IMG/VR virus record: IMGVR_UViG_3300034112_001420
Span: 1 to 37,085 of that record
DNA from: a virus
Length of the DNA stretch: 37,085 nt
Strand: one strand, 5' to 3'
Shown here: one piece after another, positions 5,827 through 33,455 of the stretch
Numbering within the stretch: the stretch's first letter is position 1
Layout: every line of letters starts with the position of its first letter
Notes under the pieces: model-generated
Told to the model about the DNA's origin: nothing
Databases searched by the model: none
What the model saw: only the letters and a program-made list of their open reading frames with translations
Translations under genes and position numbers: made by a program

Positions 5827-6234
5827 ATGGCTAAGGGTCAGAAAACTTGTGACAACTGTGGATCGTCTACTGGGCCGCGAGCATATATTTGTAAGAAATG
5901 CAATACACCTTTTGTGTTTAAGGTTAAGAGCAAAGAGAAGCGAAATACTAAAATTATTCGTGATTTTAACTGGAGAGAATTGGTTAAAGGTGACAGAATC
6001 AAGGTTAATGGCGGCCCATATTTTGTGAGTAAGGGTGAATTTATTCCTATGGGTTATCGTGGACGTTTTGTGGTTGATTCTATTGACGCTAATGGTATTC
6101 TTGCATGGGGATTGGATAAGCACCAGGGATTTTGTCATATTTATATGTCTGGAGATATTCAAAATAAAGAGACTGGCGTTTGGAAAACTGCCCATAAACT
6201 TCTTAAACTTAAACCAAAGGAAGTTCAGGTATGA
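5827..6234 (+). CDS. Zinc-ribbon protein, unknown function
   Basis: 135 residues. An N-terminal zinc ribbon has cysteines 8, 11, 22 and 25 (CDNC, then CKKC). A basic linker follows, then a beta-rich domain of about 85 residues (WRELVKGDRIKVNGGPYFVS, MGYRGRFVV, GILAWGLDKHQGFCHIYM) that resembles a small SH3-like barrel. Known proteins of this shape bind nucleic acid or RNA polymerase; that is inference. It has its own promoter and CGT/GTT-biased codons, implying good expression. Its stop overlaps the next start. Confidence 0.75.
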   Translation: MAKGQKTCDNCGSSTGPRAYICKKCNTPFVFKVKSKEKRNTKIIRDFNWRELVKGDRIKVNGGPYFVSKGEFIPMGYRGRFVVDSIDANGILAWGLDKHQGFCHIYMSGDIQNKETGVWKTAHKLLKLKPKEVQV

Positions 6235-6503
6235 TGTTGAATAACGAACAGAAACATCAGTTTGCTAAATTTATTGATCATAGAAATGAAATTAGTAATA
6301 GTTTATTTCATATGGAGCGTATTCTAAAGGAGTATTTTCCTAATGAATATGATTTGGCCTATCAACACTGGATTCCTCAAATATTGACCGCACTACATGA
6401 CGATGATAGATGGTTGTCTAGAGGGCAGTATTGTGTACAAGATACGATTGATCATATTAATGATATTGATTCTGGTTCTGGTGTAAATAAGTATATCAAA
6501 TAA
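6231..6503 (+). CDS. Helical protein, unknown function
   Basis: 90 residues in an ATGA overlap with the zinc-ribbon gene; a second ATG at 6234 is an alternative start. The predicted product is mostly helical (FAKFIDHRNEISNSLFHMER) with several His and Trp residues. No recognisable motif. Confidence 0.65.
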   Translation: MMLNNEQKHQFAKFIDHRNEISNSLFHMERILKEYFPNEYDLAYQHWIPQILTALHDDDRWLSRGQYCVQDTIDHINDIDSGSGVNKYIK

Positions 6504-6519
6504 AATATTGGAGATCATT

Positions 6520-6924
6520 ATGTCTGAAGTTTATGCAATTGTTGATGTTGATGGATATGCTATTCAAATGCGTGATGCTGCGGCACAAAGTATTTCTTCA
6601 GATACTAATGAAAATCTAGACGAATATATTTCATTGAAACAAATGACCAATTTGGTAGAAGAATTTTGTCTTGGTCACGATGATGAAGATAGACCTTTGC
6701 TTGATGAAGATACTAATGAAAAGATTTTTGAAGAAGCGGCATTGTGGATTCACGATGTTGGATTGGCTAAACTTGCAGCAAAAGATTTGGTTGAATGTGC
6801 TTGGGATAACGAAATAAATCAAATGGTATTTTGGAGTAAACCCGAAAAGCAGGAGACTAAAAATGTACGAACTAAGTCCAGAGGAAAGAATAAAAAAACT
6901 AAAGGATCAGATAGCGGAATGTAG
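6520..6924 (+). CDS. Paralogue of the 19515 protein, possible winged-helix domain
   Basis: 134 residues from ATG 6520, chosen because TTGGAG sits 6-9 bases upstream; an in-frame ATG at 6508 lacks this. The C-terminal half (about 72-110) reads LAKLAAKDLVECAWDNEINQ followed by MVFW, very close to LNELVKKDIIESGFDNESND followed by FVFW in the gene at 19515. The helix-helix-strand pattern suggests a winged-helix-like domain. The basic tail (RTKSRGKNKKTKG) may touch nucleic acid. Function unknown. Confidence 0.7.
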   Translation: MSEVYAIVDVDGYAIQMRDAAAQSISSDTNENLDEYISLKQMTNLVEEFCLGHDDEDRPLLDEDTNEKIFEEAALWIHDVGLAKLAAKDLVECAWDNEINQMVFWSKPEKQETKNVRTKSRGKNKKTKGSDSGM

Positions 6925-7027
6925 AGATTATATATCCTCTGACTTTTGTAAAAGTTGTATGGATATGTACGATAAAATTACAAAGTATGAAGAAGAATTA
7001 TACAGACTACAAAAACAAATGAATTGA
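6863..7027 (+). CDS. Small coiled-coil protein with cysteines
   Basis: 54 residues starting at ATG 6863, inside the end of the previous gene, with AGGAG at 6851-6855. Two helical stretches (EERIKKLKDQIAEC; ITKYEEELYRLQKQ) flank a FCKSCMDMYD turn. Cysteines 29 and 32 form a CxxC, so it may be a zinc-hook-like or redox hairpin. It ends inside the next promoter. Confidence 0.6.
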   Translation: MYELSPEERIKKLKDQIAECRDYISSDFCKSCMDMYDKITKYEEELYRLQKQMN

Positions 7028-7052
7028 CACAGGCTTGTCAATAGTGTAGAAT
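7024..7052 (+). promoter_or_regulatory. Promoter of the tRNA/tmRNA segment, with inverted repeat
   Basis: TTGACA (7024-7029), 17-base spacer, TAGAAT (7047-7052). The start is predicted at about 7059-7060, only two or three bases before the tRNA. ATTGACA (7023-7029) is mirrored by TGTCAAT (7036-7042), giving 7-base arms around CAGGCT, a candidate operator covering the -35 box. Confidence 0.75.
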
Positions 7053-7061
7053 ACATCATAC

Positions 7062-7141
7062 GCTCCTGTGCCAGTGGTTCCTGGCAATTACTCTTATAAG
7101 GTAATCCGAAAGGGGACTTGGTTCGATTCCAAGCAGGAGTA
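7062..7141 (+). tRNA. tRNA, probable anticodon UAU (Ile, AUA codon)
   Basis: A cloverleaf is visible. The acceptor is GCTCCTG (7062-7068) with CAGGAGT (7134-7140), including one G-U pair. The T arm CTTGG-TTCGATT-CCAAG is perfect (7117-7133). The D arm GCCAG/CTGGC (7070-7085) has a loop containing TGGTT. The anticodon stem 7088-7092/7100-7104 has loop CTTATAA (7093-7099), so U33 is present and the anticodon is TAT. The variable region is about 12 bases and contains CC-GAAA-GG, longer than a class I tRNA. CCA is not encoded; the discriminator is A7141. The tRNA call is firm. The anticodon and amino acid are less so, because the D arm is slightly off standard. Confidence 0.8.
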
Positions 7142-7411: not shown

Positions 7412-7765
7412 GGGGGCGTAATGGTATCGACTGGATATGGAAGATTGTATTAGCAAGTAGTGGTTAATCGACCGGCCACTTTAAAAGTCGATTAAATGCT
7501 TTAACTGGCACAAATCAGTTAGCCCTTGCTGCTTAATTAAATAGCAGCAACAATCTTAGAAAGCGATGAAGGTAGCGTTCAAAAGATTGTCGTAAAATCC
7601 TTCGGCTGCTAGAATAGCCAACGGGTTCTAGCCTGAGATTAGTTGGTACGGAAAGATGAATGTTGTTTGTTCTTTAATCTTTCTTAAAATTTATGAATAA
7701 AATAAACTTGTAGAAAATGTAATTAGAAATATCACAGCACGGCAGTTCGACTCTGCCCGCCTCCA
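7412..7765 (+). ncRNA. ssrA: Transfer-messenger RNA (tmRNA)
   Basis: 354-base one-piece tmRNA. The acceptor GGGGGCG (7412-7418) pairs with CGCCTCC (7758-7764). Its third pair is G-U, the alanine identity element, and A7765 is the discriminator. The T arm GGCAG-TTCGACT-CTGCC is at 7741-7757. The 5' tmRNA consensus GTAATGGTATCGACTGG is present. A pseudoknot stem TTAATCGAC/GTCGATTAA precedes the tag frame. The frame ends GCC CTT GCT GCT TAA at 7522-7536 (peptide ...TNQLALAA), and its stop sits in the hairpin TGCTGC/GCAGCA. The first codon is GCT 7498, GGC 7507 or ACA 7510; I cannot decide. tmRNA with SmpB rescues stalled ribosomes. CCA is not fully encoded. No smpB gene is in the window. Confidence 0.93.
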
Positions 7766-7770
7766 CTTTT

Positions 7771-8157
7771 ATGCCTAAAACAAATAAACAAATACAAAAT
7801 TTTAGACACGCCGCTGTTGATATTTACAAAATATCAGTCGGTTGTTGTATTTGTGGCTATAATAAACATCCATCAGCACTTTGTTTTGATCACTTACCAG
7901 ATACAGATAAGTCTGATTTGATAAAAAATGGATATGCTAAAAATAAAGTTGGAGTTGGTGGTGGTATGTATAATATGTATTATAAATCAACAAAGGTTGA
8001 GGATTTGATCAAAGAAATTAAAAAATGCAGAGTTGTCTGTGCTAACTGCCATATGGAATTAACGCATCAAAATAATACCAGAACTAAAAATAATATTGAT
8101 TTCAGTATCAATATTCAGCAACTAGAAGAATCTCTAGTTACATTTGAAAATGAGTAA
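7771..8157 (+). CDS. HNH endonuclease adjoining the tmRNA
   Basis: 128 residues. Two zinc-binding pairs frame the nuclease core: CCICG at about 27-31 and CANCHMELTHQ at about 91-101, with FDHLPDTDKSDLI between them (the DH of HNH). The start lies 5 bases after the tmRNA 3' end and no Shine-Dalgarno site is visible, so translation may be weak or need unprocessed transcript. A homing-type endonuclease placed beside a conserved RNA gene is a known pattern for mobile nucleases. It differs from the other HNH protein (3909) in having the full Cys4 framework. Confidence 0.85.
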   Translation: MPKTNKQIQNFRHAAVDIYKISVGCCICGYNKHPSALCFDHLPDTDKSDLIKNGYAKNKVGVGGGMYNMYYKSTKVEDLIKEIKKCRVVCANCHMELTHQNNTRTKNNIDFSINIQQLEESLVTFENE

Positions 8158-8875: not shown

Positions 8876-10189
8876 ATGATTCACGATTTTAATTATGTTA
8901 TGGGAATGGTTCGTGATCTTCGTGCCACTAGTAGCACTAAGGATAAGGAAGGTATTATTCTGGATTATTGTGGACACAATAGTGCCGCAGCATCTTTCAC
9001 CAAGAATATTTTGCTTTATACCTATCATCCGTTGTGGCAATACAATGTTACTAGTGATAATCTCAAGAAGAAGAATCATCTTGTAGCCAGAAAAAATGAA
9101 TACAAAAATTTCTTTGATTTGCTTGATGCTCTAAAGAGTCGAAAGATTACTGGACATGACGCTATCTCTGCTGTGAATAGTTTTATCGAACACTATTCCG
9201 AATACGAAGAACTTATCCATTGTATTATCGACAAAGATTTGAAAACCCGTGCTGGTGATAAGATTATCAATAAGGCTATTCCTGACCATATTCCAGAGTT
9301 TAGTGTTGCTCTGGCAGATAAGTACGAGCCTAAACTTGTAGATTGGAAGGATGGGTGGTATGTTAGCAGAAAAATTGATGGTGCTAGATGTGTTGCTATT
9401 GTTGATAGCAATGGTGATGCTACCTTCTATTCCCGCACGGGAAAAGAATTTGATACTCTTGCTATTGTTAGGGCCGGTATTAAGGTTCTTAACATTACTA
9501 ATGTAGTATTTGATGGCGAACTTTGTCTTGTTGATGATGATGGTAATGAGGACTTTCAAGGAGTTATGAAACAACTCAAGAAGAAGGATCATACTATTTC
9601 TAATCCTTCCTATAAGATTTTTGATATGATTAGTCATGACGAATTTTATAGCAAGCAAGGACAAAAGAATAAGCCATATTCTATTCGCTATAATAATCTA
9701 GAGGCAGTTATGAGAGATAATACTTGTACTTGTCTTAGTTTGCTTGGTCAAGAACTTATTAAAGACGATGACCATTTTGCCGAATGGACTAAACGAGGTA
9801 ATGATTATGGCTGGGAAGGTGTAATGCTACGAGCAGACGAACCATATAAGGGAAAGCGTAGCAAAGACCTACTAAAAGTTAAGAAGTTTTTTGATGACGA
9901 ATATGAAGTTATTGATATTGAAAATGGGCCATTTCGTTATGTATTAAATGGTAAAGAACACGAAGAAACTATGCTTTCTTGTGTAATGATTAAACATAAA
10001 GAGCATATTGTTCGTGTTGGTAGTGGATTCGCTATTGATCAACGACAAGAATTTTATCAAAATCCTAAAAAGATTCTTGGTAAAATTATCACAGTTCAAT
10101 ATTTTGAAGAAACTAAGAATCAAGATGGTGGTATTAGTCTAAGATTTCCAACATTTAAAATATTGCATGGTAGCAATCGTGAAATATAG
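8876..10189 (+). CDS. ATP-dependent DNA ligase
   Basis: 437 residues. It seals nicks via a lysyl-AMP intermediate. The nucleotidyltransferase motifs are in order: motif I KIDGAR with the adenylated lysine K166, then FYSRTGKEF, FDGELCLVDDDG (motif III), YKIFDMI (IIIa), WEGVMLRADEPYKGKRSKDLLKVKKF (IV/V region), followed by an OB-fold domain (VIDIENG; VRVGSGF). The first 150 residues form an all-helical N-terminal domain typical of larger phage and archaeal-type ligases. Start 8876 is fixed by CAGGAGA upstream. CGT/GTT-biased codons and a dedicated promoter imply strong expression. Partners in repair are UvdE, AlkB and the HhH glycosylase. Confidence 0.93.
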   Translation: MIHDFNYVMGMVRDLRATSSTKDKEGIILDYCGHNSAAASFTKNILLYTYHPLWQYNVTSDNLKKKNHLVARKNEYKNFFDLLDALKSRKITGHDAISAVNSFIEHYSEYEELIHCIIDKDLKTRAGDKIINKAIPDHIPEFSVALADKYEPKLVDWKDGWYVSRKIDGARCVAIVDSNGDATFYSRTGKEFDTLAIVRAGIKVLNITNVVFDGELCLVDDDGNEDFQGVMKQLKKKDHTISNPSYKIFDMISHDEFYSKQGQKNKPYSIRYNNLEAVMRDNTCTCLSLLGQELIKDDDHFAEWTKRGNDYGWEGVMLRADEPYKGKRSKDLLKVKKFFDDEYEVIDIENGPFRYVLNGKEHEETMLSCVMIKHKEHIVRVGSGFAIDQRQEFYQNPKKILGKIITVQYFEETKNQDGGISLRFPTFKILHGSNREI

Positions 10190-12992: not shown

Positions 12993-12998
12993 TTTTAT

Positions 12999-13071
12999 GG
13001 GAGCGTAATCCAATGGCAGAGATAAAGGACTTAAAATCCTTCAAGTGTGGGTTCGAGTCCCACCGCTCCTA
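12999..13071 (+). tRNA. tRNA with anticodon UAA (Leu, UUA codon)
   Basis: A clean cloverleaf. Acceptor GGGAGCG (12999-13005) with CGCTCCT (13064-13070), one G-U. D arm ATC/GAT with loop CCAATGGCAGA. Anticodon stem AAGGA/TCCTT with loop CTTAAAA and anticodon TAA at 13032-13034. T arm GTGGG-TTCGAGT-CCCAC (13047-13063). Discriminator A13071; CCA not encoded. The variable loop is only 5 bases (13042-13046), so the body is class I, whereas bacterial leucine tRNAs are class II with a long arm. It should read UUA, a codon heavily used in the glycan cluster. Confidence 0.9.
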
Positions 13072-13107
13072 TTCATTTATCAATTAAATTCTATAAAGGA
13101 TATATTA

Positions 13108-19928: not shown

Positions 19929-20316
19929 TCACGACGTTCATCTAAAATATTTGTGTAATAAATGTGGATCAATCCATTGGCTTTCTTTTAAGGAAGCATC
20001 AACAGATCAATTTAAAGTTGTTTGTGATTGTGATAATATCTTTACAGTTAGGCGTGTGTCTGGTTTTAAAATCAAGTATTTTGATCAAGAAAATAAACCA
20101 AAAATACAGAAAGAAAAACTAGAATCATCACCAAAGACTAGTAAACAAATACCAGAATTTTTATTAGCACAAACTATAAAAGCACTAATACCATATGGAT
20201 TTACTAGTGCTGAGGCTAGAGAAATTATAGTTAAAAGTTATAATGAACAGCCTAATGATAATCCATTACTTTTGGTTAAACAAACTTTGGCATCTTTAAG
20301 GAGTACAAATGTCTAA
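19906..20316 (+). CDS. Zinc-ribbon protein with RuvA domain III-like C-terminus
   Basis: 136 residues. The N-terminal ribbon has CNKC (17-20) and CDC (40-42). A charged linker follows (60-82). Residues 88-132, IKALIPYGFTSAEAREIIVK then NPLLLVKQTLASL, match the three-helix pattern of RuvA domain III (AL..LGY...EA...V........LI...L..L). That domain is the part of RuvA that contacts RuvB. The gene overlaps ruvB by 8 bases. I infer an adaptor that recruits or activates the phage RuvB in place of full RuvA, whose tetramer-forming domains are absent. The similarity is short and needs a profile search. Confidence 0.6.
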   Translation: MKHQKPIDHDVHLKYLCNKCGSIHWLSFKEASTDQFKVVCDCDNIFTVRRVSGFKIKYFDQENKPKIQKEKLESSPKTSKQIPEFLLAQTIKALIPYGFTSAEAREIIVKSYNEQPNDNPLLLVKQTLASLRSTNV

Positions 20317-21505: not shown

Positions 21506-22507
21506 ATGGCAGTCGGCTTAGACGTAGGAACAAGTTTTATTGTTTTATCCAAACAAACGCAAGAAGGAATAGAATATAAAGATTTCAGAGATGCGTTTTA
21601 TATTATAAAGCCAACAACACCAGTAGCCACAAAGATGATTGAAAAAGGATTAGCAGGAAAAGTCTTTATTAAAGATACTGATGGTTCTTTTATTCTATTA
21701 GGTAAAGACGCTATTGAAAAAGCAATAGAAAGAAACGATACTGCAAAAAGACCAATGTATAAAGGAGTAGTATCTTCTAAAGAAAAAGATGCAAAAAGAG
21801 TTTTAGCTTTTATTCTAAAAGAAGTAGTCGGAACAGCCTCAGAGTCCAGCGAAAAATTAGTATTCTGCATCCCTGCTCAACCAGTAGATCAAGAAGATGA
21901 AGATTTTGATGTAGGATATCATGAAGATGTTGTTAAAACAGTATTAGGTGAATGTGGTTATGATGCTCGTGCAATCAATGAAGCAGAGGCTTTATGCTAT
22001 GCTGAATTAGATACTGAAGAATATACTGGTATTGCAATTAGTTGTGGTGCTGGTATGACAAATGTTTGTGTCATGTTAAATGGTGAACCTACAGTAGTCT
22101 TTAGTACCACCAAGTCAGGCGACTGGGTTGATCGTATGAGCGCTGTGGCGACCGGAGAGCCGGATAGTGTTGTTCAGGCAGAGAAGGAGGCGGGTGGTTT
22201 TAAAATTGGCGAACCCAATGAAAATCCTATTCTTGGTGCAGTATCTGCATATTATGAAAGACTGATTGATTATACTACTAAACAATTAAGTATGGCCTTA
22301 AATGGTCATAAATCTTTACCAAAATTTAAAAATCCTCTTACTATAGTTATTGCTGGTGGAACATCTCAGGCTAATGGTTATGTAGAAAAATTTATAGAAA
22401 AATTATCTGGTAACAACTTTCCATTAGCAATTAAAGAAGTGAGACACGCTAAAGATCCATTACATGCGGTATCTAAAGGTTGCTTAATTGCTTCTCAAAT
22501 TTTATGA
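21506..22507 (+). CDS. Actin-like / Hsp70-fold ATPase (MreB/ParM group)
   Basis: 333 residues, the length of prokaryotic actins. Actin-fold signatures: phosphate-1 GLDVGTSF (4-11), connect-1-like INEAEALCYAEL (157-168), phosphate-2 IAISCGAGMTNVCVM (176-190), AEKEAGGFKI (225-234, like the AE..K helix of MreB) and the adenosine motif IVIAGGTSQANGY (280-292). Such proteins form ATP-dependent filaments that segregate DNA, position phage assemblies or shape cells; Hsp70-like relatives do not polymerise. The preceding membrane gene may be its anchor. A G+C-rich patch (22120-22200) sits inside the gene. Confidence 0.82.
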   Translation: MAVGLDVGTSFIVLSKQTQEGIEYKDFRDAFYIIKPTTPVATKMIEKGLAGKVFIKDTDGSFILLGKDAIEKAIERNDTAKRPMYKGVVSSKEKDAKRVLAFILKEVVGTASESSEKLVFCIPAQPVDQEDEDFDVGYHEDVVKTVLGECGYDARAINEAEALCYAELDTEEYTGIAISCGAGMTNVCVMLNGEPTVVFSTTKSGDWVDRMSAVATGEPDSVVQAEKEAGGFKIGEPNENPILGAVSAYYERLIDYTTKQLSMALNGHKSLPKFKNPLTIVIAGGTSQANGYVEKFIEKLSGNNFPLAIKEVRHAKDPLHAVSKGCLIASQIL

Positions 22508-24643: not shown

Positions 24644-25180
24644 ATGAAAACATTATCTCGTCATATACCAATAATTTACGATAATCTTTTTACTTCTGTG
24701 GAAAGTATTATTTATGGTGGATATCATGGTTCTTCTATTATAGTACCTCATGTATGCAATAATGTGAATGTATTCGGTGGTGGTTTTACTGCCGGTATTA
24801 CTAAATACTATCCTATAGTTGGAGAAAATTATTCTTTATTAGGAACACATTTTCTAAAAAACAATCTGGGATATGTACAGTATGTTGAAACTACAAAGGA
24901 TAATACTTATGGGCATAAATTAATATTTGCTAATATGATTGCTCAAAATGGTATAATATCTAAACAGAATCCTAGACCGTTAAACTATGGTGCATTAGTA
25001 AAATGTATGTTGTCAGTATCATCCTATCTGCATAATAATTTTGATAAAGATAGTCCGGTACAAATTCACGCTCCCAAATTTGGTAGCGGCTTGGCCGGTG
25101 GAAACTGGTCTTTAATAGAGGAATTAATTTCAGATATTTGGTCTAAATATAATGTTTTTATATATGATATTAGAAAGTAA
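24644..25180 (+). CDS. Macro-domain protein (ADP-ribose binding)
   Basis: 178 residues, first gene after the promoter, with GAGG before ATG 24644. The macro-domain signature is present: IIVPHVCNNVNVFGGGFTAG (32-51) with the Asn and glycine loop, and HAPKFGSGLAGGNWSLIEEL (142-161) with the GSGLAGG phosphate loop and the following W..IE helix. Macro domains bind, and many hydrolyse, ADP-ribose or ADP-ribosylated targets. In a phage this could remove ADP-ribose placed by host defence toxins or neutralise ADP-ribose-derived signals; that is inference. Substrate not shown. Confidence 0.85.
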   Translation: MKTLSRHIPIIYDNLFTSVESIIYGGYHGSSIIVPHVCNNVNVFGGGFTAGITKYYPIVGENYSLLGTHFLKNNLGYVQYVETTKDNTYGHKLIFANMIAQNGIISKQNPRPLNYGALVKCMLSVSSYLHNNFDKDSPVQIHAPKFGSGLAGGNWSLIEELISDIWSKYNVFIYDIRK

Positions 25181-25185
25181 GTAAT

Positions 25186-25797
25186 ATGAGCGATTGTATG
25201 TCAGAATCGGATATTCATAAAGAAATGGATTTTTGGATCAACTATACTCAACCAACTAAAGACTTTAAACATAAAAATTTTTATGTTAATTTTTTTGATT
25301 TTTTACAAATTAAAAATGAGGTACTAGAAATAGGCTGCGGAGGTTCACCATTTATAACTTATGTCGATAACTATGATAATACTATACAATTAAGTCTTTT
25401 AGATCCATTAATAGATCAAATTTCATCAATACCTAAATATAGTTTTCTGACTAATTATACTAGATATAATCAAAATCTATTGGATAGTTCAATCAATCAG
25501 AAATATGACTATATAGTTTGTCTAAATGTTTTAGATCACTTTCCAAATTCATATACTAATTTCCTAGATAAAATTAAACATATGTTAAAGGATAATGGTA
25601 AAATCTTTTTATATTATGATATTAGAAGAATAAATAATGATGGGCATTATGCTATTAATCATAATGAAATATATAGCTATATTATTAATAATTTTAACAT
25701 AATTAAAGAATCCTTGGACGTGAACCCCGTACACCATAATTGGTCAACAGTTTATCAATCTTATAGAGCGGTGTTGGAGGTTGATACTATTTTATGA
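25186..25797 (+). CDS. Class I SAM-dependent methyltransferase
   Basis: 203 residues. SAM-binding motif I VLEIGCGGSPF (46-56), an acidic end of strand 2 (LSLLDPL), motif IV-like YDYIVCLNVLDHFPN and the post-motif LKDNGKIFLYYDIRR define a Rossmann-type methyltransferase. The methyl acceptor is not shown, but location at the head of the glycan cluster suggests sugar or lipid. ATG 25186 and 25198 are both possible starts. Overlaps the FkbM gene by 4 bases. Strongly AT-rich codons. Confidence 0.82.
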   Translation: MSDCMSESDIHKEMDFWINYTQPTKDFKHKNFYVNFFDFLQIKNEVLEIGCGGSPFITYVDNYDNTIQLSLLDPLIDQISSIPKYSFLTNYTRYNQNLLDSSINQKYDYIVCLNVLDHFPNSYTNFLDKIKHMLKDNGKIFLYYDIRRINNDGHYAINHNEIYSYIINNFNIIKESLDVNPVHHNWSTVYQSYRAVLEVDTIL

Positions 25798-26360
25798 AAT
25801 ATTTAATAGATTGTGGCACACATTTTTTTGAAGGTCTTAAAAAATTAAATAATATTTATAAATTTGACGATACTTGGATGATATATAGTTTTGAAGCAAA
25901 TCCAATTACCTTTAATGCATCTCATAAATATAAACCTAGTTATATTAATTTAATACATATAAATGCTGCCGTATCTACACAAGATGGCTATAAAACCATA
26001 AATTGTGAAGGTAGTCAGAATGGCTGTGGTGAAGGCTCGAATATCTTAGAATTTCCACCACAGAGCGATACTCTTTATGGGCATAGTTTTCAATATCAGA
26101 AGTTACAAACCCCAACTTATGACTTGTGTTCTTTTATATTAAATTTATCTAATATAGATTTTTTAGTTATAAAAATGGACATAGAGGGTGAAGAATATAG
26201 TATCCTTCCACAAATACTAAATAGTAATATCAAAATTGATGATATTTATATTGAATTTCATGAAAGGTTTTTTGAGGATACACAGTACTATGCTAGTCTA
26301 AATTCTTCGTTTATTTCACAATTACATAATAATAATACTAATGTGATAGTTTGGCATTAA
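25794..26360 (+). CDS. FkbM-family methyltransferase
   Basis: 188 residues. SAM-binding features of the FkbM group: LIDCGTH near the start (motif I with a changed glycine pattern), YSFEANP (31-37) and FLVIKMDIEGEEYSIL (118-133, the LKIDVEG-type motif). FkbM enzymes O-methylate sugars or polyketides. It is shorter than typical (about 230-250), with a compact C-terminus (YIEFHERFFEDTQYYAS). Within the glycan cluster, sugar O-methylation is the natural reading. Second methyltransferase in a row. Confidence 0.8.
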   Translation: MKYLIDCGTHFFEGLKKLNNIYKFDDTWMIYSFEANPITFNASHKYKPSYINLIHINAAVSTQDGYKTINCEGSQNGCGEGSNILEFPPQSDTLYGHSFQYQKLQTPTYDLCSFILNLSNIDFLVIKMDIEGEEYSILPQILNSNIKIDDIYIEFHERFFEDTQYYASLNSSFISQLHNNNTNVIVWH

Positions 26361-26362
26361 AT

Positions 26363-27046
26363 ATGAAATTATATACCTTTTATACAGATAGTCATTCTAT
26401 ATTATTTGATAATTTTTTTAAACCCTCTCTGTCTATAGTAGATAGTATTGATCTAATTTATAAAAAAGAACCTCAAAAGTGTACAACCGCATCCTATATG
26501 GATAGTGGTTGGCTAGAAACTATGAAGTCTAAGGTTCAACTGCATATTGAAGCGTCCAAACAGTTTGATGATCAACACTTTATTTATTCGGATTGCGATA
26601 TTATCTTTTTAGATTCCAATTTAGTACAGATATTACTTGAAGAATTAGATGATAATGATATTGCTTTTCAGGATGATGTCGAGCCTTATGGCAATAGACC
26701 AACGTGTTGTGCTGGTTTTTTTATTAGCAAAACTAATAAATCAACATTATCTATATGGGAAAATGTTTTAGATATACTTAATAAATTACCACAAAATACT
26801 AATCAAAACGATCAAACATTATTAAATTTGATACTTAATAATACTGGATCTAATATTAAATATAAACTTTTATCTCATAAATTTTTTACATTAGCACAGT
26901 ATAGAAAAGAATTATGGGATAAAAAAACAAATTTTTTTGATTTCGATATACCGACTAATATAGTAACATATCACGCTAATTGGACTCATGGAGTGTCCAA
27001 TAAAATTAATTTACTCAATATGGTTAAATCTAAAAAACAAATATGA
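26363..27046 (+). CDS. Glycosyltransferase (nucleotide-diphospho-sugar transferase type)
   Basis: 227 residues from ATG 26363 (a TTG at 26351 is in frame). A GT-A fold is suggested by the DxD motif in FIYSDCDIIFLDS (73-85, D77 and D79), which binds the metal and sugar nucleotide. QDDVEPYGNRPTCCAGFFIS and NDQTLLNLIL, the acceptor-side helix seen in this group, follow. The donor sugar is not identifiable. Overlaps the epimerase gene in ATGA, so they should be translated together. Confidence 0.75.
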   Translation: MKLYTFYTDSHSILFDNFFKPSLSIVDSIDLIYKKEPQKCTTASYMDSGWLETMKSKVQLHIEASKQFDDQHFIYSDCDIIFLDSNLVQILLEELDDNDIAFQDDVEPYGNRPTCCAGFFISKTNKSTLSIWENVLDILNKLPQNTNQNDQTLLNLILNNTGSNIKYKLLSHKFFTLAQYRKELWDKKTNFFDFDIPTNIVTYHANWTHGVSNKINLLNMVKSKKQI

Positions 27047-27909
27047 ACATACTGATTACAGGACATAAAGGCTTTGTTGGTGGATATTTTTTAAAAAAAT
27101 ATAGTAATCATAATATCTTAGGTATAGATATAAAAGAAGGTAATGATGCTAGAGATTTTTTTAAACAAGACAATTCTGCTTTTGATTTAGTAATACATCT
27201 GGCTGCTGTCGTTGGTGGTCGCCAAACAATTGAAAACTCTCCTATATCTGTGGCTGTGGATTTATCCATAGATGCTGAATTTTTCGCATGGTGTTTACGA
27301 ACAAAACCAAAGCACATCATTTATTTCTCATCCTCTGCCGCGTATCCTATAGAATACCAATATAGAGATTCTGGTATTTTATTACGAGAGGATATGATAG
27401 ATCTCGATAATATCAAGTCTCCAGATTTGACATATGGTTGGGCAAAATTGACAGGAGAATATCTTGCTAAATTTATATCTAATGAAGGAATAAATACTAC
27501 AATTTTTAGACCATTTTCTGGTTATGGTACAGATCAAGATTTGTCTTATCCCTTTCCTTCATTTATACAAAGAGGATTATTAAAAAAAGATCCTTTTGAG
27601 ATTTGGGGGGATGGTTGTCAAGTAAGAGATTTTATTCATATGGAAGATGTGATGAATGCTGTAGACATATGTGTACAAAATAAAATATATGGTACTTATA
27701 ATTTAGGTACTGGCCGACCGATATCTTTTAATCAGTTGTGTCGTATGGTGTGTGAACAGAGTGGATATAATCCTACTATCAACCATCTGCCAGCAGCACC
27801 AACTGGCGTAATGTATAGAGTATGCGATCCATCTCTCATGTTAAAGTTTTATCAACCTAAAATTAGTTTAGAAGAAGGCATATATAGAGCATTAAAAGAG
27901 ACTATTTAA
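27043..27909 (+). CDS. NAD-dependent sugar-nucleotide epimerase/dehydratase
   Basis: 288 residues, extended short-chain dehydrogenase family. The NAD loop GHKGFVGG (7-14) fits GxxGxxG, and an Asp ends strand 2 (LGIDI). VIHLAAVVGGRQTIENSP gives the second nucleotide contact. FSSSAAYP (95-102) with YGWAK (131-135) supplies the Ser-Tyr-Lys catalytic set, then IFRPFSGYG, and GDGCQVRDFIHMEDV binds substrate. Enzymes of this shape make UDP-, dTDP- or GDP-sugar donors. The fucosyltransferase-like domain in the next gene makes a GDP-fucose-type product attractive, but substrate is not proven. Starts one frame junction (ATGA) after the glycosyltransferase. Confidence 0.88.
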   Translation: MNILITGHKGFVGGYFLKKYSNHNILGIDIKEGNDARDFFKQDNSAFDLVIHLAAVVGGRQTIENSPISVAVDLSIDAEFFAWCLRTKPKHIIYFSSSAAYPIEYQYRDSGILLREDMIDLDNIKSPDLTYGWAKLTGEYLAKFISNEGINTTIFRPFSGYGTDQDLSYPFPSFIQRGLLKKDPFEIWGDGCQVRDFIHMEDVMNAVDICVQNKIYGTYNLGTGRPISFNQLCRMVCEQSGYNPTINHLPAAPTGVMYRVCDPSLMLKFYQPKISLEEGIYRALKETI

Positions 27910-29709
27910 ATGGCTATAGCCAAAGCTAAAAAAGAAAATATTCAAAAAACTAATACAATGTTAACAACACAGAAAAATATTATTATATATAATACTTCAG
28001 ATATTGAGGTAAAATTTAATAATATAAATTTATTGACTACTAAAATCTTAATACTATCTTTAGTTAAAGACCCAATAGAGAGTGCCAAATATTTACATAA
28101 TTTTATAAACAATATTTCATCAAAAATTCCAAATACTAAATTTAGTTTTTTTACTAATAATAATAGTAATAATGGACAATTATTTTTAGACTTAATAATA
28201 TCTAAACATAAAAATGTACAAATAATTAAATATAAAAATGAACATGTTGATCTAAATAATAGAATAAATAAATTTGCAGAATATCGTAATTTAAATTTTG
28301 AATATGCTATTAAGACATTGGGTACAGATTTTGATTATGTTATAATTTTTGATTCTGATCTATATAGTGATTTGCCTGTAGATAACATAATTCAAAGCTT
28401 ATCTTTAGATGAAAAATGGTCTTGTATATCAGCCAACTGCACCTATGCTAACTCTAATTTTTATTATGATGAATTAGCTTTGAGGTTTAAAAATAACTCC
28501 AAAGACATTACTCATCTACATCCACTATTTAAAGAATATTATGGTAGTAGTCAAAAATGGCTAGAGTCTCTTAGAATATTCAATGCTTGGACAGAGACTG
28601 ATAGTGCTTTCGGATGTTTAAGTATATATAAAATGAGAGAACTATTGGATATTTACGACAAATATGGTAAATTATACGATCTGACGAACTACCCAGAATA
28701 TACAGCAGAGCATATATCTCTGCATGATAAATTGCCGCACAAGAAACTAATTAGTCCAATAATTAATTATAGTAATAATATAAATATAGAGGATAATATG
28801 ACGCACACAACAGCTTTTGTTCCAAGAGATGCTGGTTTTTTTTCAGTCTTTAATTTTTATGTTGGTTGTTTGACACAAGGAGCTAGATCATATCCTCTAT
28901 GGAATAAACAAGAATTACTTAATATGCACGGTACAAATGCTCATTTTGCATATTGGACAGAAAATTTTAATTGTTGGTTTGATTATTTTGAACCAGTACA
29001 ATTTTTTGATAATGACACAACGCACGTTACAGAGGAATATGTAAAATTACCACGATATTCTGGCGAACAAGGACCGGAAGAGTTTAGACTACCCAATAAA
29101 ACTAAAGAACTCTTAAAAGGAGATAAAGTCAAATTCCAAGAATGGCGAAATAATGTTCATAAATTTTTCAAAACTTTTATTAAGTTCAAACCTGAAATTG
29201 TCGATACTGTAGATAAGATCTGGTATGATCATTTTCGTGATAGTCAGAATATTATTGGGATCCATTACAGACATCCAAGTCATTTTATAGAAAGTGGTAA
29301 AATATATTTAGAAAATTATTTTGATAAAATAGATAGTATTCTAAAAGAATATCCAAAGTCAAAGATATTTTTAGCTTCTGATAGCCAATTTGGTATTTAT
29401 TCTTTTATAGAGCGTTATGAAGATAGGGTTTTTTATATTAAAGATATTGACAGATTAAGTATGGCTGAATTTTTACAGTGGGCTTTTGGATTAGCAGATG
29501 GTCAGGCTGACCATGTGGGATTTATTAATGGTAAAGGCTATGAATTACATCATAAAAGAGTAGGAAAAACAGATAATAAAAAAATGACCTTAGATCTTTT
29601 AACAGAAATACTGTGCCTATCTAGATGTAATCAAATTATCAATAATATTTCTAATATACCACTAGCTATTAGTTATATCAATCCAGAAATTGAGATTATT
29701 ACATTATGA
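27910..29709 (+). CDS. Two-domain glycosyltransferase (GT-A plus fucosyltransferase-like)
   Basis: 599 residues. The N-terminal part (about 40-300) resembles CAP59/GT69-type transferases: ILILSLVKD, FSFFTNNNSNNG and a DxD in FDYVIIFDSDLYSD (141-153). The C-terminal part (about 420-599) has GIHYRHPSHF near 450, IFLASDSQFGIYSFIERY and LTEILCLSRCNQI, the spacing of alpha-1,6-fucosyltransferase-like (FUT8/NodZ-type) enzymes that use GDP-fucose. The fusion suggests sequential addition of two sugars. TTA, ATA and AAT are extremely frequent. Fold assignment is by motif only; the C-terminal call is the less certain. Confidence 0.7.
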   Translation: MAIAKAKKENIQKTNTMLTTQKNIIIYNTSDIEVKFNNINLLTTKILILSLVKDPIESAKYLHNFINNISSKIPNTKFSFFTNNNSNNGQLFLDLIISKHKNVQIIKYKNEHVDLNNRINKFAEYRNLNFEYAIKTLGTDFDYVIIFDSDLYSDLPVDNIIQSLSLDEKWSCISANCTYANSNFYYDELALRFKNNSKDITHLHPLFKEYYGSSQKWLESLRIFNAWTETDSAFGCLSIYKMRELLDIYDKYGKLYDLTNYPEYTAEHISLHDKLPHKKLISPIINYSNNINIEDNMTHTTAFVPRDAGFFSVFNFYVGCLTQGARSYPLWNKQELLNMHGTNAHFAYWTENFNCWFDYFEPVQFFDNDTTHVTEEYVKLPRYSGEQGPEEFRLPNKTKELLKGDKVKFQEWRNNVHKFFKTFIKFKPEIVDTVDKIWYDHFRDSQNIIGIHYRHPSHFIESGKIYLENYFDKIDSILKEYPKSKIFLASDSQFGIYSFIERYEDRVFYIKDIDRLSMAEFLQWAFGLADGQADHVGFINGKGYELHHKRVGKTDNKKMTLDLLTEILCLSRCNQIINNISNIPLAISYINPEIEIITL

Positions 29710-30557
29710 ATATACAAGAACTGTTACCTCCATCAAAAGAATTTATAAATAAATATAATCAATATATTAATGTTGGCAAAAACTTTCTATCAACTAAAAA
29801 AATAGTAATACTTGGTTTAGCTAGAAATATAGGTTCTTCTATAGAACACTCTATAACCAAATTAGTTGATTTTGCTAAAAATTCCAAAGAATATAAAATC
29901 ATTATCTTTGAAAATGATTCTGAAGATAACACTAGAGAAATACTAGATAACTTAAAAAAAGACAACTCCAATATTATAACTATTTATGAGACTCACAATA
30001 GACCACAATTCGGCCCAGTACAAGATGCTGAACGAACAATGGCTTTGGCGGAATATAGAAATACTCTGAAGGAGTATGTCAAAACACACCTGTCTGATTA
30101 TGATTTTGTAGTGGTTTCTGATATGGATTTTATTGACTTTAGCGACCTAGGATGCTATAACTCATTCGGATGGTTTTCTACACACAATAACACCATTGAT
30201 GCTATAGCAGGAAATGCTTTTGAATATAAAAATGTAACATTAGCTAATCAAAAAAGCTTATGGAACTATGATAGTTGGGCCTTTAGGTATACTTGGTGGA
30301 ATCAGTTGCCTATTTTAGATTCTATGACTTATAGTGGAATGTTATGGTTTGGATTTTTTATTATGCCAGTTGGATCTCCTATTATTCCTGTCAATAGTGC
30401 TTTTGGTGGTATGACTATTTATAAAATAAACTCGTTTATTCAGGGAACATATGATGGCTTTGATTGTGAACATGTGTGTTTTCATTATGATCTTAAGCAA
30501 AAAATTCCATCATTTCAATTAGTAATAAATCCTTCACAAACAATGTTAGTTATATGA
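29706..30557 (+). CDS. Glycosyltransferase, GT69/CAP59-like
   Basis: 283 residues, starting in an ATGA overlap. VILGLARNIGSSI (34-46), IIIFENDSEDNTREIL (66-81), an arginine-rich helix (ERTMALAEYRNTL) and FVVVSDMDF (134-142, DxD at D139/D141) match the fungal-type CAP59 mannosyltransferase pattern. It is similar to the N-terminal domain of the gene before it, so the two may be old paralogues. The C-terminus contains GFDCEHVCFHYDL. Acts in the cytoplasm (no signal or membrane span). Donor and acceptor unknown. Confidence 0.75.
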   Translation: MNIQELLPPSKEFINKYNQYINVGKNFLSTKKIVILGLARNIGSSIEHSITKLVDFAKNSKEYKIIIFENDSEDNTREILDNLKKDNSNIITIYETHNRPQFGPVQDAERTMALAEYRNTLKEYVKTHLSDYDFVVVSDMDFIDFSDLGCYNSFGWFSTHNNTIDAIAGNAFEYKNVTLANQKSLWNYDSWAFRYTWWNQLPILDSMTYSGMLWFGFFIMPVGSPIIPVNSAFGGMTIYKINSFIQGTYDGFDCEHVCFHYDLKQKIPSFQLVINPSQTMLVI

Positions 30558-30691
30558 TATTTTTATTAATTCTTGCAATTATTATTGGCTTAATGCAATC
30601 TCAACAAGCAATTTATAATGTTAGAAATGGCTTAGAGATTGGTGTCCCAGAATCAAATAGTTTAATAGACTTTACATTTTTAAACAGATGA
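30554..30691 (+). CDS. Very small membrane-anchored protein
   Basis: 45 residues between two ATGA overlaps. Residues 1-14 are fully hydrophobic (MIFLLILAIIIGLM), then a short soluble tail (SQQAIYNVRNGLEIGVP). It could be a single-span miniprotein. Support comes from the exact overlaps at both ends. Confidence 0.55.
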   Translation: MIFLLILAIIIGLMQSQQAIYNVRNGLEIGVPESNSLIDFTFLNR

Positions 30692-31230
30692 ATAATAGAC
30701 TAAATAATCAAAGAGTATATTTAGCGGGTGCGATGGATAGAGTCGCAGATCGTGGCACAGGATGGAGAGATAGTATAACTCCATTTTTAGAAAGTTTAGG
30801 AATAGTTGTCTTTAATCCAATTAGTAAACCTACGGATATTGGATTAGAAGATCATGATACTCATCAAATCAAAACCAAGCTCAAACAAATGGGCAGATAT
30901 GATGAATTAAGTGCTATGATGAAAACTATTCGTGCTGTAGATTTACGATTGGTAGATATAAGTGATTTTTTAGTAGTCAATCTAGATTTAGATACCCATC
31001 CATGTGGAACATATGAAGAAATTTTTTGGGCTAACCGTCAGAAAAAACCTATAATAGTTCATATGGTACAAGGTAAAAACAAAACACCAGACTGGCTATT
31101 TGGTACAATACCACATCAAATGATTTTTTCTAGTTGGGAAGAAATCCAAAACTATCTAGAACATATTCATACTTCAGAAAATATAGACACTCATAAACGA
31201 TGGTACTTTTTCAATGCAAAAAATAATTAA
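30688..31230 (+). CDS. Nucleoside 2-deoxyribosyltransferase-like protein
   Basis: 180 residues. The family pattern is visible: RVYLAGAMDR (9-18), WRDSITPFLESLGIVVFNP (26-44), an Arg/Asp region (IRAVDLRLVDISDFLVVNLD, 81-100) and CGTYEEIFWANRQKKPII (106-123), whose Glu corresponds to the catalytic nucleophile. These enzymes move deoxyribose between bases or cleave deoxynucleosides and nucleotides. The gene overlaps GMP reductase by 17 bases, so both may act on purine nucleotides. Precise substrate unknown. Confidence 0.78.
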   Translation: MNNRLNNQRVYLAGAMDRVADRGTGWRDSITPFLESLGIVVFNPISKPTDIGLEDHDTHQIKTKLKQMGRYDELSAMMKTIRAVDLRLVDISDFLVVNLDLDTHPCGTYEEIFWANRQKKPIIVHMVQGKNKTPDWLFGTIPHQMIFSSWEEIQNYLEHIHTSENIDTHKRWYFFNAKNN

Positions 31231-32353
31231 TGAAACTAAACTAGATTTTGATGATGTTCTTATTAGGCCAAAAAGATCTTTTCTAACAAGTAGGAAACAA
31301 GTGTCCCTGCTAAGGGATTTTCATTTTGTTCATTCTCCTAGACAGTTAAATTGCATACCAATAATGGTGGCTAACATGGATACTGTTGGTACGCTTGAAA
31401 TGGCAAAAACCATAAGTAAACATAAAAGCATAGTTTGCTTACATAAGCATTATTCTGTTGATTCTCTTGTGGATTTTTATACACAATACTCTGATCTTAG
31501 AGATTATGTCTTTTATTCTACAGGAACTTCTACTAAAGATATTGAAAAAACAACAGAAGTATTTAATAAGCTCAAAATACGCAACACCCTACTGCCTAAT
31601 ATTTGCCTAGATGTTGCTAATGGATATACAGAACAATTTGTTAAAACAGCAGCACAATTAAGAAAATCTTTTCCAGAAGTTATTATTATGGCTGGAAATG
31701 TTGTGACTCCAGAAATGGTTGAGGAACTTATACTGCATGGAAAAGTAGATATAGTCAAGATTGGTATAGGGTCAGGTAGTGTATGTACCACTCGTTTAAA
31801 AACGGGCGTTGGATACCCTCAATTGAGCGCTGTGATGGAATGTGCCGATGCTGCTCATGGTCTGGGTGGTCATATATGTTCTGATGGTGGATGCAAAGTG
31901 GTCGGAGATATTTGCAAAGCTTTTGGTGGCAATACTGATTTTGTAATGTTAGGTAGTATGTTTGCAGGAACTGACGAATGTGAAGGAGAATGGACATACG
32001 AGTATCGTTGTGCAATAGTTGACAACGATAGGAAAGTAGTCCAAGAATGGTGGCAACCTAGCGATCCTGGTTATAATGATCAAAAACGTAAAAAAACATT
32101 TCAATATTATGGTATGAGTAGTAAAAATGCTATGGATAAACATCATGATGGAGTAGCCAATTATAGGACAGCAGAAGGTAAATGTGTTACTATATCATAT
32201 AAAGGATCAGCAGAAGAAATATTGCAAGATATTTATGGTGGTCTCAGAAGTGCTTGTACTTATATAGGCGCTACTAAAATAAAAGATTTCGGTAAAAAAA
32301 CAACATTTATACAAGTTAATAACACACACAATAAAATATATGAAAAACCTTAA
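31214..32353 (+). CDS. guaC: GMP reductase
   Basis: 379 residues (E. coli GuaC 347). It reduces GMP to IMP and ammonia with NADPH. The TIM-barrel IMPDH/GMPR family signature is nearly verbatim: GIGSGSVCTTRLKTGVGYPQ with catalytic C191, then SAVMECADAAHGLGGHICSDGG and DFVMLGSMFAGTDECEGEW. VGYPQLSA and ECADAAHG are the GMPR rather than IMPDH form, and the IMPDH CBS domains are absent. The C-terminal flap region (KGSAEEILQDIYGGLRSA) is intact. It converts guanine to adenine-branch nucleotides, plausible for a genome this AT-rich. It lies inside the glycan cluster. Confidence 0.93.
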   Translation: MQKIINETKLDFDDVLIRPKRSFLTSRKQVSLLRDFHFVHSPRQLNCIPIMVANMDTVGTLEMAKTISKHKSIVCLHKHYSVDSLVDFYTQYSDLRDYVFYSTGTSTKDIEKTTEVFNKLKIRNTLLPNICLDVANGYTEQFVKTAAQLRKSFPEVIIMAGNVVTPEMVEELILHGKVDIVKIGIGSGSVCTTRLKTGVGYPQLSAVMECADAAHGLGGHICSDGGCKVVGDICKAFGGNTDFVMLGSMFAGTDECEGEWTYEYRCAIVDNDRKVVQEWWQPSDPGYNDQKRKKTFQYYGMSSKNAMDKHHDGVANYRTAEGKCVTISYKGSAEEILQDIYGGLRSACTYIGATKIKDFGKKTTFIQVNNTHNKIYEKP

Positions 32354-33455
32354 TTTATTTTGTCCGATTAATAGTACTGGCTACGGTATTACCTCATTAA
32401 ATATTACTAAAGCTTTATCTCAAGATTTAAATATATGTTTATTTCCTATTGGAAATAGTATAGAATGTAATACTGAAGATGATAGTAAAACTATAAAGCA
32501 ACTACTAGATCGTAGTTCATCCTTCGACTATTCTGCCCCATGTTTGAAAATATGGCATCAGTATGATTTAGCGACTAGAATAGGAAATGGCCACTATTAT
32601 ACATTCCCATTTTTTGAAGTAGATAAACTAACTCCTAGAGAAATTCATCACTTAAATTATTCTGATTTTATATTTGTTGCATCAGAATGGGGTAAAAAGA
32701 TTTTACAACAAAATAACGTAAATAAACCGATATATGTAGCTCCATTGGGAGTGGACGCTAGCATCTTTCGTATTCCAGAAAATAAAATATTAATAGAAAA
32801 TGATAATTATCGTTTTTTTCACATAGGAAAATGGGAACATAGAAAATCACAAGATATTTTATTAAAGGCTTTTGATGCTGCTTTTGATATTAATGATAAT
32901 GTAGAACTATATTTATTACCATTTAATCCATTTTTAACAGAACAGGAAAATAATTATTGGTTTAATTTAGTAGAAAATTGTAAATTAAAAAATAAGATAA
33001 AAATTTTTGGTAGACTAGATACACAATACCAAGTAGCAGAATTTATTAGCAGATGTGACTGTGGCGTTTTTGTGTCTAGGGCTGAAGGATGGAATAATGA
33101 AATTATTGAAAGTATGGCAATGAATAAGCCAGTTATTGTTACTAATTATTCAGCTCATACTGAATATTGTAATAAAGATAATTCTTATTTAGTAGATATT
33201 GATGAAACAGAACCGGCTAACGATGGTAAATGGTTTAAGGGTTTTGGTAATTGGGCTAAAATTACGGATAAACAAATAGAACAAATTATTCATTATATGA
33301 AATATGTGTATCATAATGGTATATATTCTAATCCTAGTGGTGTAGCAACAGCTAATCACTATAGTTGGAATCATACTGCTAATATTATTAAGTCTACTTT
33401 TATTAGGAATAATAGCTATTATGCCAATACCAAAGCCAAAACAAAACGAAGATAG
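32340..33455 (+). CDS. Glycosyltransferase family 4
   Basis: 371 residues. GT-B fold: N-terminal domain with a Gly-rich acceptor loop (NSTGYGITSLNITKAL), a linker PIYVAPLGVDASIF (130-143), then the nucleotide-sugar domain with FFHIGKWEHRKSQDILLKAF (the GR..K region), FGRLD and CDCGVFVSRAEGWNNEIIES, the E-x7-E motif of GT4 enzymes, followed by MNKPVIVTNYSAH. A cytoplasmic retaining transferase. It overlaps the GMP reductase gene by 14 bases and the next gene by 35, so the glycan operon runs straight into the structural-type genes. Confidence 0.88.
   Translation: MKNLNLFCPINSTGYGITSLNITKALSQDLNICLFPIGNSIECNTEDDSKTIKQLLDRSSSFDYSAPCLKIWHQYDLATRIGNGHYYTFPFFEVDKLTPREIHHLNYSDFIFVASEWGKKILQQNNVNKPIYVAPLGVDASIFRIPENKILIENDNYRFFHIGKWEHRKSQDILLKAFDAAFDINDNVELYLLPFNPFLTEQENNYWFNLVENCKLKNKIKIFGRLDTQYQVAEFISRCDCGVFVSRAEGWNNEIIESMAMNKPVIVTNYSAHTEYCNKDNSYLVDIDETEPANDGKWFKGFGNWAKITDKQIEQIIHYMKYVYHNGIYSNPSGVATANHYSWNHTANIIKSTFIRNNSYYANTKAKTKRR

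Follow-up and report, generated by a model that had tools for sequence, protein, structure and literature searches.

The question raised by this locus is whether a large uncultured phage carries a working tmRNA gene of its own and, if so, what the phage would gain from it. tmRNA is a bacterial RNA which releases stalled ribosomes and tags unfinished proteins for destruction. In the initial annotation, made from the letters of the linear 37-kb virus record analysed here over its whole length of 37,085 nucleotides (hereafter the window), the stretch at 7412-7765 had been read as a complete phage-encoded tmRNA.

A complete one-piece tmRNA gene

Using ARAGORN on the window, we identified a one-piece tmRNA at 7412-7766 on the plus strand (the strand of all its structural elements given below) with the tag GTNQLALAA, in agreement with the significant Rfam match to the covariance model RF00023 at 7412-7768, which runs end to end (model positions 1-374) with 124.3 bits (E 2.2e-48) and clears the gathering threshold of 47 bits. 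The mature part of this ssrA gene, without CCA, was assigned to 7412-7765 from ARAGORN, RF00023 and covariation, and its last nucleotide is exactly the discriminator A, as the annotation had placed it. A two-piece (permuted) tmRNA (RF04321) was ruled out by both ARAGORN and Rfam, since the window gene lies in the standard 5'-to-3' order.

All the elements named in the annotation, the acceptor with G3-U70, the T arm, the pseudoknot before the tag, the frame ending in LALAA and a stop, and the hairpin around this stop, were found to be present. The acceptor stem of 7 bp, GGGGGCG/CGCCUCC, is formed by 7412-7418, including G3, and 7758-7764, including U70; the discriminator A (A73) at 7765 is followed by CUU, and as CCA is not encoded, the window tmRNA depends on a CCA-adding enzyme. 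The D-loop region at 7419-7433 (TAATGGTATCGACTG) is of the G18G19 type by its sequence and by the elbow classes described below, and with the T arm at 7741-7757 (GGCAG-UUCGACU-CUGCC) it gives an elbow of the ordinary GG/UUCGACU type. The tRNA-like domain of the window thus has G3-U70, A73 and the T arm, and the tag region has a resume codon, the conserved A at -4, a stop within a hairpin and a hydrophobic end. The tag frame with its UAA stop occupies 7507-7536 by ARAGORN and translation, starting from the resume codon GGC, and is preceded at 7502-7506 by UAACU, whose bases include the counterparts of U85 and A86 in E. coli. In E. coli the U85/A86 context sets the tag frame, with a role for A86 (PMC2481249), and the window sequence U-A-A-C-U fits this context. 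The window RNA has the same tRNA-like domain, helix P2, four pseudoknots, tag frame, hairpin H5 and G3-U70 as the bacterial one-piece tmRNA (RF00023), but differs from it in being phage-borne, in not encoding CCA, and in that no smpB was found in its clade.

The accuracy of this structure, which was read from the window sequence, was examined by covariation in 107 distinct relatives, using 99 pairs in 15 stems. Standard pairs fill 9,996 of the 10,546 cells, and compensatory changes were found in all 15 stems, the four pseudoknots included, with at least one two-sided change in 75 of the 99 pairs; the sequences share ancestry, so that shuffles serve as a guide only, while controls with slid partners retain the relatedness. 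Against such slid partners the acceptor is paired in 96.3% of cells (53-64% when slid) and the T stem in 99.2% (53-67% when slid), all five T-stem pairs being double-changed. Helix P2 (5' strand 7434-7458, 3' strand 7706-7733) is 88-100% paired in its parts P2a, P2b and P2c, with compensatory changes, and hairpin H5 at 7526-7550 (UUGCUGC/GCAGCAA, 7 bp), which contains the stop codon, is 96.8% paired. The pseudoknots, with 87-100% of cells paired, all lie far above their slid partners: pseudoknot 1 at 7459-7495, made of AGUGG/CCACU and UUAAUCGAC/GUCGAUUAA, is paired in 100% and 96.5% of cells with 9 double-changed pairs; pseudoknot 2 at 7551-7603 switches among relatives from GAAGG/CCUUC to GAGGG/CCCUC, and its second stem is 100% paired with all five pairs double-changed; pseudoknot 3 at 7604-7649 is paired to 98.9% and 91.6%, and pseudoknot 4 at 7650-7701 to 91.7% and 95.5%. 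As compensatory changes back every stem in the 107 relatives, the match of the window to RF00023 is not due to chance. The acceptor and T-arm pairs, whose lack of conservation in related phages would have spoken against the annotation, are kept, and their changes are compensatory.

G3-U70 is present in 113 of 113 tmRNAs, including a few from outside the clade, and the rest of the acceptor occurs in 11 fully paired versions, GGGCGAG/CUCGUCC and GGGUGCG/CGCAUCC among them. The resume codon is preceded by TAACT or TAATT in 94 of the 113; another 17 were scored as TAAAT, mostly because scoring began 9 nt early. The clade tags follow, with few exceptions, G-x-[N/T]-Q-L-A-L-A-A, mainly residues 2 and 3 being variable. 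At the level of sequence, the covariation and the invariant G3-U70 give strong evidence for what would be a working, alanine-charged tmRNA.

The carrier phage, its clade and the tmRNA neighbourhood

The window encodes ThyX, RIIA, RIIB, an ATP-dependent ligase, a clamp-loader-like ATPase and a sigma factor, as identified with PHROG profiles. Forty-three of its ORFs match a 187-kb record (G014), mostly in the same order, and from this collinearity the window belongs to a phage of roughly 187 kb; the virus record, the collinear phage with its terminase and RIIA/RIIB genes, RF00023 and the covariation together bear out the annotation of a complete phage-encoded tmRNA. The terminase of the 187-kb record (phrog_2) finds in cultured phages only distant matches, at about 25% identity over 70%, the ligase is about 31% identical to those of cultured phages, and a DNA search of the window against 50,697 phage records gave no match; judged by these comparisons, the clade has no close cultured relative, and in the open papers we found no description of it. 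The window also encodes an actin-like volactin at 21506-22507 (PF25216, 1e-60; 87% identical in the 187-kb record) and, at 24644-33455, a run of ORFs which by eye from the translations have the look of macro-domain, methyltransferase, glycosyltransferase and epimerase genes, together with an IMP dehydrogenase/GMP reductase-like ORF by PHROG profile.

For the identification of relatives, the ATP-dependent DNA ligase at 8876-10189 (+; phrog_114, 3e-81) was employed as a syntenic marker, taking the best 80 of 325 related loci. Among these best 80, a tmRNA was found in 62, including all 31 loci whose upstream DNA extends to 6 kb or more; one ligase locus with 4.5 kb upstream is without it. In nearly all loci the tmRNA ends 0.2-5.3 kb upstream of the ligase. 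Of the 49 records tested, RF00023 matched 48, among them two with a short T-arm-like match only and one (L112) with a sub-threshold match to an interrupted gene, and the sole record without a match starts 370 nt before the ligase. The tmRNA is thus nearly universal in the clade. The rarity stated in the initial annotation holds for phages in general, since tmRNA genes are present in 402 of 18,146 phage genomes, or about 2% (PMC9004378), but not for this clade of large uncultured phages spread over hundreds of metagenome contigs, in which the tmRNA is nearly fixed and no curiosity. The fixed genome place, the compensatory changes and the intact tag and acceptor in more than 100 variants also stand against a captured host gene in decay and without function, a reading which we regard as scarcely credible even though phages can acquire ssrA pieces used as integration sites (PMC9004378).

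The window tmRNA is a new clade member of an already known kind of phage tmRNA. Complete tmRNAs are likewise carried by Bacillus phage G and by mycobacteriophages Bxz1, Wildcat and others (PMC4131195), whose cultured hosts are known; the window had no DNA match in the 50,697 phage records. Marine-phage two-piece tmRNAs, such as that of OM43 phage Melnitz (PMC9004378), are also phage-borne ssrA but permuted, whereas the gene described here is in one piece. Certain two-piece phage genes from metagenomes agree with the window tmRNA over the first 23 nt and over a large part of the 3' end. One such two-piece gene, with the tag GVENYAMAA and a rIIB-UvdE neighbourhood, was found around 19973-20289 of G051:C7 (locus L193), a phage-like contig assigned by binning to a SAR202 MAG and distantly related to the clade; its first 23 nt are 100% and its last 34 nt 88% identical to the window. 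The gene form, two-piece or one-piece, thus differs from one related phage to another.

Upstream of the tmRNA lies a tRNA-Ile (UAU) at 7062-7141 (+), predicted by ARAGORN, with none from Rfam at the gathering threshold, and ahead of the tRNA-Ile/ORF/tmRNA run a possible promoter, TTGACA-17-TAGAAT, at 7024-7052 (+) with 11 of 12 consensus matches, such promoter-like sites showing as a class no excess over shuffles. A tRNA-Leu (UAA) is found further along the window, at 12998-13072. Starting 5 nt past the tmRNA is an HNH endonuclease ORF at 7771-8157 (+; PHROG HNH, 4e-16), which, being present in few relatives only, is probably a recent homing-type insertion.

A single clade tmRNA (L112:5942-6923) is broken inside pseudoknot 1 by an insert of about 625 nt that holds an endonuclease VII-type ORF at 6101-6640 (PF02945, 2e-19) and ends in 26-nt inverted-repeat arms with 88% complementarity; both pseudoknot 1 stems, the acceptor and the tag GNTQLALAA are still intact. 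No group I intron was detected in this insert with Rfam, and no second interrupted gene was found among the other full or partial clade tmRNAs. Known tmRNA introns all sit in the T-loop (PMC11915505).

The fast-changing tRNA-like domain and its elbow

The tRNA-like domain (TLD) is the part of tmRNA which binds SmpB, AlaRS and EF-Tu, and in bacteria it is normally the most conserved one. Among bacterial tmRNAs of Verrucomicrobiota and Chloroflexota, a set biased to high-scoring genes recognised by ARAGORN, the TLD was the more similar part in 599 of 599 pairs with at least 50% identity in the rest of the molecule. The phage clade shows the opposite at short distance: where the rest is 90-100% identical, mean TLD identity is 79%, and the TLD exceeds the rest in similarity in only 57 of the 351 pairs. 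Between the loci L141 and L145, for example, the ligase genes are 96%, the tmRNA bodies 98% and the TLDs 68% identical. This reversal of the bacterial pairs tested was unexpected and is the new point of this tmRNA group.

The variation includes the elbow, where D-loop and T-loop, at opposite ends of the gene, vary in step: GG D-loops are accompanied by T-loops of 7 or 6 nt of the UUCGA type, and AG D-loops occur with GGCAGAA, UGCAAAU or similar T-loops (9/9 versus 0/98). With tRNA numbering as assigned in this analysis, contact 19-56 is kept and contact 18-55 turns from G-U to A-G. Placed on the ligase tree, the AG type takes 6 changes to explain, and well-supported branches force at least 5; some of the changes may stem from recombination between tmRNA genes. 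We put forward tentatively, as a possibility short of an even chance, that the TLD is under diversifying selection and that in its D-/T-loop contact G18-U55 has repeatedly given way to A18-G55, the two gene ends changing in concert. As to the source of such selection, escape from nucleases, integrases or homing endonucleases acting on the ends of tRNA and tmRNA, or else the fit to different host SmpBs, would be a guess. The odd T-loops of some relatives, from which the window is excepted, might impair charging or the binding of SmpB. The more than 100 natural variants, in which the SmpB-binding elbow has repeatedly undergone coupled changes, constitute a ready-made mutational scan of tmRNA.

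Tag, SmpB and the proposed function

The window had also been proposed to carry its own tag with a different degradation signal, and this part of the annotation found no support: the LALAA end is common, and one of the bacterial phyla sampled has tmRNAs with tags of the form GxxQLALAA. As LALAA is the standard degron, nothing suggests that the tagged proteins would meet a new fate. This ordinary ending, together with the variation mainly at tag residues 2 and 3, argues against a selective role in which the phage RNA would confer an unusual fate on tagged proteins or take the place of a host tmRNA that a defence has destroyed; the retention of an own copy across the clade and a TLD changing as if to escape from something acting on it would suit such a role, which we nevertheless hold to be improbable.

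A PF01668 search for SmpB, positive in 10 of 14 control genomes, gave no match in 66 related or similar phage records, many of them 120-330 kb long and the 37-kb window fragment not among them. Huge phages, also large and uncultured, have been reported to carry tmRNA and also SmpB (PMC7162821), in contrast to the 66 records searched here. The phage presumably uses host SmpB and, with none found in the clade, its tmRNA would still depend on this host factor even if it replaced the host tmRNA, as the annotation had suggested it could. The lack of SmpB would suit a decoy, that is, a phage RNA binding SmpB through its TLD and damping host trans-translation in the manner proposed for DS6A, a mycobacteriophage with a TLD-only RNA, as would the variable elbow and the finding that TLD-only RNA inhibits tmRNA (PMC4131195; PMC11915505). 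A decoy, however, needs no tag, stop hairpin or four pseudoknots, all of which are under compensatory selection, nor the G3-U70 kept throughout, and we consider it very improbable.

The gene, its structure, its tag, its conservation and the lack of detectable SmpB in related phages were all observed directly, and the window very probably carries a one-piece tmRNA that is functional in a large phage, acting in ordinary trans-translation with host proteins. Processing, charging, SmpB use, proteolysis and benefit are deduced from the known biology of tmRNA. The tmRNA is probably co-transcribed with tRNA-Ile, and its precursor would be trimmed by RNase P and 3' nucleases, receive CCA from the host enzyme and be charged with alanine by way of G3-U70. 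Host SmpB and EF-Tu would then deliver it to stalled ribosomes, which would move to the GGC codon, append (A)GTNQLALAA and stop at UAA, the tagged protein passing to host ClpXP-type proteases. During infection the phage tmRNA would most likely supply extra rescue capacity for ribosomes stuck on broken mRNA, such as host mRNA being degraded. A tmRNA nearly fixed without detectable SmpB argues that ribosome rescue by a phage-own RNA matters in infection.

A Chloroflexota (SAR202) host is a candidate only. GxxQLALAA-like tags are present in Chloroflexota related to a SAR202 MAG, and two contigs assigned to this MAG carry phage genes that are distantly related; the distribution of DUF1501, which is common in Verrucomicrobiota with no match in 200 other Chloroflexota, points away from this host, and BLAST of the window tmRNA against 400 Chloroflexota genomes gave short matches only and no donor. 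In one relative (L113; G014:149279-152409), proteins of the DUF1501 (356 bits) and VWA types are encoded between tmRNA and ligase. The DUF1501 protein shares 64-66% identity with a counterpart on the phage-like contig G051:C7, and its identity to Verrucomicrobiota proteins, taken over its length, does not exceed about 41%; DUF1501 is a cell-type gene in phages.
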